A stretch of 57,364 nucleotides of DNA from Candidatus Polarisedimenticolia bacterium (lineage in GTDB: Bacteria > Acidobacteriota > Polarisedimenticolia > Gp22-AA2), in NCBI GenBank assembly GCA_036001465.1, contig DASYUH010000066.1, positions 1-57,364 of the forward strand, read 5' to 3'. Every line of letters starts with the position of its first letter. The stretch's first letter is position 1. Below the pieces are notes generated by a model. The model was not told the origin of the DNA, ran no database searches, and saw only the letters and a program-made list of their open reading frames with translations. Below, in pieces: positions 7,868-42,267 of the stretch. The translations under genes and the position numbers were made by a program.

Positions 7868-8713
7868 ATGGCGAAGCAGATTCCCAACAACCCGGGGCGC
7901 GGGCCGTCGTTCGAGCGGCCGACGGCGGTGTCGGCCGGGACGATGCGGGCGGCGACCCTGGCGGGCGTGGCGATCCTGATCGGCATCACGGGCACCGACT
8001 GGTACGAGTCGCGGCAGCAGCGCACGGCGCTCAACGAGCGGCTGACCCAGCTCGAGACGCGGATGACCGCCCTCGGGACCAAGATCGAGAGCGGCGCGCG
8101 GGCGCAGGCGCGGCCCAGCGGGCCGGATCCGGACAAGGTCTACACGCTCAAGACCGAGGGATCGCCGTTCGTGGGGCCGAAGGCCGCGCCGGTGACCATC
8201 GTCGAGTTCTCCGACTTCCAGTGACCCTTCTGCGCGAGGGTCGGTCCGACCCTCGATCAAATCCGGAAGGTGTACGGCGACAAGGTGCGCATCGTCTGGA
8301 AGAACAATCCGCTGCCGTTCCACCCGAACGCCATGCCGGCGGCGCTGGCATCGATGGCGGCGTACGAGCAGGGGAAGTTCTGGGAGTACCACGACAAGGT
8401 GTTCGCCAACCAGCAGAAGATGTCGCGCGCCGACCTCGTGCAGCACGCCAAGGACCTGGGGCTCGACGTGAAACGATTCGAGGAGGCGATGAGCTCCGCC
8501 AAGGCGAAGCCGGCCATCGACGCCGACGCGGCGGAGGCCAAGTCGCTGGGGGCCAGCGGGACGCCGGCCTTCTTCGTCAACGGCCGCTTCCTGTCGGGGG
8601 CCAAGCCGTTCGACGAGTTCGCCCAGGTGATCAACGGCGAGCTGACGCGCCTGAAGATCCCGATCCCGCCGGGCGCCACGGTGGGGGCCGCCGCCCCGAA
8701 GCCGGGCGGATAA
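7868..8713 (+). CDS. DsbA-family thioredoxin-fold protein, probable selenoprotein (TGA read as Sec119)
   Basis: One TGA (8222-8224, codon 119) divides an otherwise continuous 281-residue frame. Upstream are a short N-terminal segment, a membrane anchor (about residues 28-45, TLAGVAILIGITG), a coiled linker and the start of the DsbA fold, VTIVEFSDFQ. Directly after the TGA comes PFCARV. In Cys homologues the motif reads FSDFQCPFC, so the TGA stands exactly for the first active-site cysteine and gives Sec-Pro-Phe-Cys122. The rest is a standard DsbA/DSBA-like thioredoxin domain with helical insert and SGTPAFFVNGR (cis-Pro loop). A SECIS-like hairpin follows the TGA. The protein should be an exported or membrane-tethered thiol/selenol oxidoreductase. 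ATG 7868 has GGAG upstream. If Sec is not inserted, only the 118-residue anchor fragment would be made. Confidence 0.85.
8222..8254 (+). promoter_or_regulatory. Candidate bacterial SECIS element of the DsbA-like gene
   Basis: After the TGA at 8222-8224, GAGGGTC (8236-8242) pairs perfectly with GACCCTC (8248-8254) around the loop GGTCC. Counting the U of UGA as 1, the loop G-G-U-C falls at 22-25. This is where the E. coli fdhF element has its SelB-contacting G23-U24. The seven-base-pair stem and five-base loop fit the general bacterial SECIS pattern (G in the first two loop bases, loop roughly 16-37 nt after UGA). An unpaired U at position 17, as in fdhF, is not obvious. Confidence 0.75.
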
Positions 8714-40419: not shown

Positions 40420-42267
40420 TCACCGGAGAAGCCGGGCGAGGGCCGCCTCGGCGTCGGCGTGCAGGGTCGGCGGGGCGCCGTAGTACGCCGCCACGGTCCG
40501 TCCATCGCCGCCGAACAGGAACAGCGTCGGGACCGCGCTCACGTCGCCGAAGGCGCGGCCCAGATCCGGCGTGCCGATCGTCCAGACGATCGGCAGCTTC
40601 AGGTCGGCGGCGATCCTGCGGATCTCCGGCTCTTCGGAATGAACCGCGACGGCCAGCACCTCCAGGCGGTCGCCGTGGCGCCGCTTCAGCTCGCCCAGCC
40701 AGCCGAGCGTGCTCCGGCAGGGCGGGCACCAGGTCGCCCAGAACTCCACCAGAACGGGGCGTCCGGCGAGATCGGCGCGCGTCAGGGCGCGCCCGTCGAG
40801 ATCCGTGATGGCCAGATCCGGCAACTCCGCCAGCGCCGCGGGTTGCGCGGGAGCGGCCTGCGCGCGGGCGCTCTCCTTCCGGCCCTCGAGGATGAGGGTG
40901 ATCATCCGGGCCAGGTCGGCACGGAAGCGATCGTGGCTGGCGGCGCTCTTGAAGGGTGTGTACCGGCCGCCCCCCTCCGTCTCCCCCTTGCCGTAGAAGC
41001 CGAAATCGCTCGGGGTCGCGACCAGCACGTCGTCCACGAAGATCGCGGGGTAGCGGGTCACCCCGAGGCTCTTCGCCAGCTTCGAGTCGCCGTAATTCTC
41101 CTCCACGAAACGCACCTTGCCGTCGAATTCCGAAACCACGCCCTGCGCCAGCAGACCTGCCGGGTCGGAGAGGTTTCAGGTGTACGGCCAGCGCACCAGC
41201 GTCACCGTGACGCGCGGGGCGGGCTCCCGCTTCGCCGGCCGCGCGGGCGCGAGGGCGGCGAAGTAACGCGGCAGCACGTCGTCGGCGATCGCCGCCGCGA
41301 CGGCGGGACCGGCCCCGGCGGCGGGGTGCGCGATGTCGGCCTGGGCTGCCTCGAAGAAAAGCCGCCCGAGGCTGTGGTCGATGCCGCCCGCCTCGAGGCG
41401 GGCGGCCAGCCCGCCGAGCCGCGCCTCCAGGGCGCCGGCGTCCGCGGGCGGCGCCGTGGCCGGGCGCAGGGGGGCGAATCGCCGCGCCGCCTCGAGGTAG
41501 CGCAACAGCGCGCCGTAACGCAGCCCGGCCTCGTCCAGCTCCCGCGCCTCCTTCAGCACGCCGCTCGCCACGATGAACTCCGTGTGCCGGTCGATCGAGA
41601 CCGGCGGCTTGTACACCGACAGGAGATCGCGCTGCAGCGCGGCGATCTCGGCGGACAGTCCGCGCACCGGCGGCGCTTTCCGGGTGGTCGGCGCCGCAAT
41701 CTGGCGGCAGAATGCGGCGAACTCCCGCTGCGCCTGCGCCGCTCCCAGGTAGAACAGACCGCTGTCCGGCGTCGTGCTCCGCCCGTACTCGAGACTGGCG
41801 TCGTAATAGACCCGCACCTGGTGGAGGACCGCCTCGCCGAGGGCGCGCACCAGCGCGGGCTGCACGCCGTCGAACGAGGCCGGCGAGGGACCGCGGAGAT
41901 CGTCGCGCAGCACCCGCCCCATGCGGGCCCACTCCGCCTCGAACCCGGAGGCGTCGGTACGCAGGCCGGGCGGGCGGGTCCTGAGGTACTCCCACGCCGA
42001 CAGGTTCTCCCGCGTGGCCGCGAGCCGCTGCAACGCCAGGAGCCGCCGCCCGTCGCGCAGGGCTTCTTCCGTGCGCTCCATGGCCGGGCCGGTCGCCTCC
42101 TTGACCTGGTTCCACATCTCGTCCGTGGAGGTCATGCCGCTCTGATAGGCGGACCAGCGGGCGATCTCGGCGTCGACCGGGTCCGGCGAGGCGGCCTCCG
42201 GAGCCGGGAGCGTGCATGCGAACACCGCCGCGAACGCGGCGACAACCAGCCTGCATGTGTCGATCAT
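40420..42267 (-). CDS. Exported double-thioredoxin-fold protein, probable selenoprotein (TGA read as Sec364)
   Basis: A continuous 615-codon frame is interrupted only by TGA at 41176-41178 (codon 364). Residues 1-25 are a signal peptide (VVAAFAAVFACTLPAPEAAS). Residues 25-345 are helical and not assigned. A first thioredoxin fold follows: strand VTVTLVRWPYT, then the TGA, NLSDPAGLLAQGV, and LGVTRYPAIFVDD (cis-Pro407). The TGA therefore sits at the redox-active position, giving Thr-Sec-Asn-Leu-Ser. After a linker comes a second, TlpA-like domain with VEFWATWCPPCRST (Cys514, Cys517). A SECIS-like hairpin follows the TGA. If the TGA were a true stop, the first thioredoxin domain would be cut after its first strand and the second would have no signal peptide. 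A periplasmic selenol/thiol oxidoreductase is inferred. Confidence 0.82.
41148..41178 (-). promoter_or_regulatory. Candidate bacterial SECIS element of the double-thioredoxin gene
   Basis: After the TGA (41178-41176 on the minus strand), CCGGC pairs with GCTGG (41163-41159 with 41152-41148, one G-U pair) around the loop AGGTCT. Counting U of UGA as 1, the loop occupies 21-26. The ten bases GCAGGUCUGC at 19-28 are the same as I recall for E. coli fdhF, at the same distance. A lower stem TCCGA (positions 10-14) with TCGGA (46-50) is also possible. This is a stronger match than the element at 8222. Confidence 0.8.

Follow-up and report, generated by a model that had tools for sequence, protein, structure and literature searches.

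The window, by which we mean the whole 57,364-nucleotide stretch of DNA analysed, contains on its minus strand (40420..42267) a gene of 615 codons plus a TGA stop, in which an internal TGA is read as selenocysteine (Sec) at residue 364. Full-length homologues were found in 25 species. The UGA and the hairpin that follows it are kept in all 25, and no Cys version was found in the genomes searched, so we regard this as a real, apparently undescribed selenoprotein family. That UGA364 is decoded as Sec via a SECIS element is close to certain in our judgment, even though the case is built on sequence comparison and not on experiment. With good confidence, the observations as a whole are best explained by a Sec-bearing oxidoreductase of the cell envelope, whose oxidised Sec is reduced by the protein's own TlpA domain; the relay and the substrate in this explanation are inferred.

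The reading frame opens at the ATG at 42267 and closes at the TGA at 40422-40420, and its sole internal in-frame TGA is codon 364 (41178-41176). 

An earlier note on this DNA had reported this minus-strand frame of 615 codons with one TGA at 41176-41178, preceded by VTVTLVRWPYT and followed by N-L-S and, further on, by VTRYPAIFVDD, and all of these elements are in place. Codon-position GC is 0.75/0.56/0.93 before the TGA and 0.73/0.51/0.90 after it, the same high-GC coding signature on both sides. The gene has both an internal in-frame TGA and a terminal one, and TGA is thus a sense codon and the gene's own stop. Many homologues also terminate at TGA, and the recoding is therefore local.

The protein turned up in 25 distinct species when 60 relatives, 396 genomes from across the phylum and 84,980 species genomes were searched. 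The Sec364 codon (41176..41178, minus strand) is TGA in 25/25 of them, in the context T-x-VRWPxT-U-xxSDPA-x-LL, so that the conservation of Sec in homologues, which the earlier note had named as a check, is observed. Over the Sec and TlpA domains, identity to the window protein goes down to 46%, and the TGA is retained even where as many as half of the residues differ. In the 396 genomes of the phylum, no match at E up to 1e-5 had Cys, Ser or any other residue in place of Sec, and the 41 class genomes gave no convincing Cys homologue at E up to 1, with a gap in the matches from E 7e-47 to 0.05. The uninterrupted Cys homologues that had been expected are therefore missing from both sets, because the family appears, as judged from these sequences, to be Sec-only. 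This leaves the case for Sec unharmed.

The distribution of the family is patchy: two of five sampled genus members have it, and the other three (75-92% complete) are without it. Plasmid records gave no match. An all-phyla contig search by exact peptide found 13 loci, of which 11 carry the label Acidobacteria or one of its classes and 2 the label Planctomycetota; such exact patterns reach close relatives only, and phyla other than Acidobacteriota were only partly covered. The homologues on Planctomycetota-labelled contigs, L031 and L040, reflect either mislabelled bins or lateral transfer; in the tree, L031 falls among the sequences nearest to that of the window (97/96 support).

Downstream of the UGA lies a SECIS hairpin, CCGGCA-GGUC-UGCUGG (41148..41163, minus strand), which spans nt 16-31, with the U of UGA as nt 1, and has its loop 18 nt after the UGA. 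The consensus at nt 16-31 in the 25 species is CC[A/G]GCA-[GGUC/AGUU]-UGCUGG. At nt 19-28 the window has GCAGGUCUGC, and the same ten letters stand in the same register in E. coli fdhF, as a comparison with 5,368 E. coli genomes confirmed. The earlier note had placed the GGUC loop at the fdhF distance from UGA, and the register is indeed identical.

Selection on this element can be read from the codons. The Ala+6 codon is GCA in 25/25 species, compared with a 5% background among Ala codons in these genes, and the Leu+9 codon is CTG in 25/25. Codon conservation measured against codon usage gives a mean z of 4.4 over codons 1-9 and of 0.5 over 94 later columns, and synonymous shuffles of the window gene alone recreated the apical sequence in 15/5000 cases. 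Gly(GGT)-Leu(CTG) is found in 14 species and Ser(AGT)-Leu(TTG) in 11, so whenever the amino acid changes, the Leu codon changes synonymously with it, even though TTG makes up only 8% of Leu codons. At the RNA level, pair 22:25 is G-C in the 14 and A-U in the 11, with no intermediate. On the best tree, which was built without the hairpin pair columns, this pair switched four times, twice across well-supported branches and always at both sites. Because independent switch events are few, the tree test cannot become significant by itself, and the weight of the SECIS evidence rests on the codon bias. A covariance model of the hairpin, in which the window sequence itself is included, scores 67 bits (E 1.4e-16) at the window site; a scan of the genome with this model found no other strong site, the next reaching 22.6 bits (E 0.014).

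Published criteria for bacterial SECIS elements comprise a stem of 4-16 bp, a loop of 3-9 nt, a G in the first two loop positions and a distance of 16-37 nt from the UGA (PMC13188914). Stem length, loop size, G position and spacing fulfil them in all 25 hairpins: the stem has 6 bp or more in 23/25 and 5 bp in 2/25, the loop has 4 nt, the spacing is 18 nt, and G stands at loop position 2 in all and also at position 1 in 14. The published energy limit is at most -7.5 kcal/mol (PMC13188914). The apical hairpin alone gives -7.9 kcal/mol or lower in 13/25, -7.2 in 10 (the window included), and -3.9 and -4.6 in 2, and 55 nt of the window fold at -21.7 kcal/mol; the published score covers another span. 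A bulged U17 has been reported as essential for E. coli SelB (PMC8659212). It is absent here, where position 17 is a paired C, and the SelB contact must therefore differ in part from that in E. coli. The family also departs from the fdhF element in its uninterrupted 6-bp stem and in the AGUU loop variant. The AGUU and GGUC loop sets (11/25 and 14/25), both without the bulged U17, are natural material for the study of SelB-SECIS recognition in the phylum.

The machinery for Sec insertion, which the earlier note had proposed to look for, is present in the genome: SelA (541 bits), SelB (347 bits), SelD (364 bits) and a tRNA-Sec with anticodon UCA (73.9 bits). SelA is above its curated cut-off in 15/15 sampled genomes with the family. 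This complete set bears on the possibility that the UGA is read by near-cognate readthrough as another amino acid, Trp or Cys, and not as Sec. Only mass spectrometry could exclude such decoding, but we consider it very improbable, given also the SECIS at the fdhF register, the redox-active position of the residue, and the lack of a TGG, TGC or TGT version of the codon in any species with the protein.

Two further selenoprotein genes were noticed. The SelD gene of the same genome (L065, G000:C13:57411-58343) is interrupted by an in-frame TGA, SGG-U-AAKL, and thus encodes a selenoprotein SelD. Within the window, a plus-strand gene at 7868-8713 has a TGA at 8222-8224. Its frame is DsbA-like, EFSDFQ-U-PFC, and the UGA is directly followed by a strong hairpin, GAGGGUCGGUCCGACCCUC. 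The gene matches NCBIfam NF041057 (Rcas_1661 thioredoxin-like (seleno)lipoprotein) at E 4e-32, below the cut-off of that model, and is of a known kind.

The protein begins with a signal peptide at residues 1-26 (MIDTCRLVVAAFAAVFACTLPAPEAA; 42190..42267), assigned by reading the sequence; homologues have similar hydrophobic N-termini, two of them lipoprotein-like. Three domains follow, all encoded on the minus strand: an all-alpha domain at residues about 28-340 (41248..42186), the Sec domain at residues 352-460 (40888..41214) and a ResA/TlpA-like thioredoxin domain at residues 475-615 (40423..40845). An AlphaFold2 model built from the 25 sequences has a mean pLDDT of 86.8 and a pTM of 0.83, with a pLDDT of about 90 in the N-terminal domain; in it the second thioredoxin-like domain covers residues 480-615. 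The architecture first put forward, a Sec-containing thioredoxin fold fused to a TlpA domain, is borne out for both of these domains, but it overlooked the N-terminal helical domain of ~310 residues.

In the Sec domain, which contains W-P-Y-T-U-N-L-S and a cis-Pro loop, R-Y-P, DSSP assignment of the model gives E353-359, U364, H367-381, E385-391, H396-400, P407, E408-411, E414-417 and H442-460. This is the thioredoxin order beta-alpha-beta-alpha-beta-beta-alpha, in which the redox motif opens helix 1 and the cis-Pro precedes the third strand, and the model topology thereby supports the thioredoxin fold that had been proposed around the TGA, with the first strand before it and the cis-Pro loop after it. 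At the sequence level the match to thioredoxin is weak (E 0.1-0.25), no thioredoxin model of Pfam or NCBIfam is above cut-off for this domain, and the assignment rests on motif, register and model topology. HMMER aligns T-U-N-L-S to W-C-G-P-C of a resurrected thioredoxin (3ziv), again weakly (E 0.21). This alignment puts Sec364 at the position of the N-terminal, nucleophilic Cys and Ser367 (41167..41169), which is invariant in the 25 species, at that of the resolving Cys. Where Sec364 had been suggested as a resolving or catalytic selenol, the catalytic role is thus the one that agrees with the alignment, weak as it is, and the resolving place belongs to Ser367. The second Cys of the dithiol CxxC of thioredoxin and glutaredoxin is absent, and the only redox-type residues conserved in all 25 species are Sec364, Cys514 and Cys517.

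The two Cys residues form the C514-P-P-C517 motif (40717..40728) of the C-terminal domain and are both present in 25/25 species, as is WCxPC, which in the window reads WATWCPPC. This domain matches Pfam Redoxin above cut-off (4.2e-12, 46.5 bits) and, by VIA, ResA/DsbE structures (Z 19.3 to 3gl3, 18.0 to ResA 1su9). The NCBIfam ResA and TlpA equivalogs score 55.7 of 230 and 52.3 of 170 bits, both below their curated cut-offs. The matches listed by the PDB fold searches (Foldseek, VIA) lie almost wholly in the TlpA domain, and we therefore make no claim on known folds for the N-terminal or the Sec domain.

The UxxS motif raises the possibility that Sec is inserted but that the enzyme acts chiefly as a glutathione-peroxidase-like peroxidase, with a hydroperoxide reduced by Sec and the TlpA domain serving merely to regenerate the Sec. 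Peroxidase-type selenoproteins are known with UxxT (GPX-like) or UxxS (peroxiredoxin-like family) (PMC13188914). The Sec domain here, however, resembles thioredoxin, cis-Pro loop included, and not GPX or Prx, and has no match to the peroxidase families of Pfam or NCBIfam, which makes this function a possible but unlikely one.

The N-terminal domain has no match in Pfam and only one weak match among PDB sequences. In 5 species it is a separate gene directly upstream, whose end lies 122-205 nt ahead of the UGA; the Sec gene in these species has its own signal-like N-terminus. Profiles of the N-terminal domain and of the Sec domain find an identical set of 15/396 genomes, and the two are therefore inherited as a unit. 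The existence of the separate gene, and the use of TGA as the genome's normal stop, at the end of the window gene as well, could be taken to mean that the UGA is a real stop and that a second protein arises by re-initiation. In those five species, however, the split precedes the UGA, which still lies within the frame of the Sec gene. A stop would also break up the thioredoxin fold after its first strand and ahead of its helix, at a point flanked by invariant residues, leave the re-initiated protein without the first strand, and provide no explanation for the selection on the hairpin codons. We give this alternative practically no credence and retain the decoding of UGA364 as Sec.

Neighbouring genes in the 25 loci do not name a substrate, and none recurs except that of the N-terminal domain. 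An EamA transporter, an S41 peptidase, a beta-lactamase and a gamma-glutamyltranspeptidase near the window gene were rejected as clues to function, as they are not conserved. In one locus (L091, 6348-8564, genome G047) the helical domain follows, in one protein, a secreted domain of the metallo-beta-lactamase fold, a relative of SoxH-type/quinoprotein-relay zinc metallohydrolases, and L094 and L036 have weakly similar genes close to the family. The fusion is a possible clue to the substrate.

For the favoured Sec-bearing oxidoreductase we propose the following mechanism. SelB with tRNA-Sec decodes UGA364, helped by the hairpin, as sequence comparison shows, and the signal peptide would place the product in the cell envelope, secretion being inferred. 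A thiol/selenol redox role is highly likely. With UxxS replacing CxxC in the middle domain, we propose that the selenolate attacks a substrate, be it a peroxide, a sulfenic acid or a disulfide; the sequence shows that the middle domain itself offers the Sec no Cys as a partner. Oxidation would leave the selenium as a selenenic acid or in a mixed selenenylsulfide, which the CPPC of the attached TlpA/ResA-like domain would then reduce. This intramolecular relay, already suggested in the earlier note, is inferred, and we lean towards it only slightly. The CPPC in turn may be recharged by a DsbD/CcdA membrane electron carrier. DsbD_TM was found in 15/15 genomes with the family, but DsbD is common in bacteria and this is weak evidence for recharging. 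The N-terminal domain, in cis or from the adjacent gene, would most likely hold the substrate or position the two redox domains.

A 2026 catalogue lists 119 prokaryotic selenoprotein families and subfamilies (PMC13188914). In its TlpA/redoxin entries the Sec belongs to the redoxin motif (UxxC, UGC), its UxxS entries are a rhodanese, an arsenate reductase and a peroxiredoxin-like family, and in none of the 119 does a UxxS thioredoxin domain of its own stand ahead of a CPPC TlpA domain (PMC13188914). NCBIfam 20 has no model covering residues 1-470. The earlier note's remark that it knew of no described selenoprotein of such architecture agrees with the catalogue and with NCBIfam 20. We found no description of such a protein in the literature, but most subscription papers were outside our coverage and a prior description is not fully excluded.

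Among the closest known systems, the ResA-like WAxxUGC selenoprotein (NF041054), or UGC-containing TlpA family (PMC13188914 Table 1), shares the TlpA/ResA-type thiol-disulfide oxidoreductase domain and a UGA-encoded Sec, and our C-terminal domain matches NF041054 weakly (1e-7, 31.6 of 300 bits, below cut-off). There, however, Sec lies within the TlpA-domain motif, whereas the window protein has an all-Cys TlpA domain, Sec in a separate upstream UxxS domain, and the helical domain in addition. Sec thioredoxins and Trx-like proteins (UxxC) likewise replace the N-terminal active-site Cys of a thioredoxin fold with Sec, but in our family the second Cys is an invariant Ser, no Cys homologues were found in the searches above, and thioredoxin models stay below cut-off. 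The rhodanese/DsbD fusion-like selenoprotein TsoB (NF045694) resembles it in the fusion of a Sec-bearing domain to redox domains, yet has two Sec and a different Sec-domain fold, and only a short redoxin part matches the window protein (18 of 805 bits). By its predicted fold the family belongs among the thioredoxin-fold selenoproteins, and it stands out among them in two ways: no Cys form was found, and it is strictly paired with a helical domain of unknown nature.

Bacterial selenoproteins are for the most part Cys enzymes in which Sec takes the place of Cys, and it is through the Cys forms that annotation detects them. With no Cys form found here, pipelines that treat UGA as a stop would split the gene into an orphan and a 'TlpA' fragment. 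The family shows that there are Sec-only families still to be discovered, through conservation of UGA and SECIS alone. More tentatively, the helical domain, the UxxS selenol thioredoxin and the TlpA reductase may form, as one unit, an obligately selenium-dependent envelope system for a substrate unsuited to cysteine. Relatives either retain Sec or are without the entire system, and no Cys form was seen. A helical domain of unknown function is now tied to selenium chemistry, and because relatives keep Sec or lack the gene, the family offers a natural test of what selenium does beyond sulfur.
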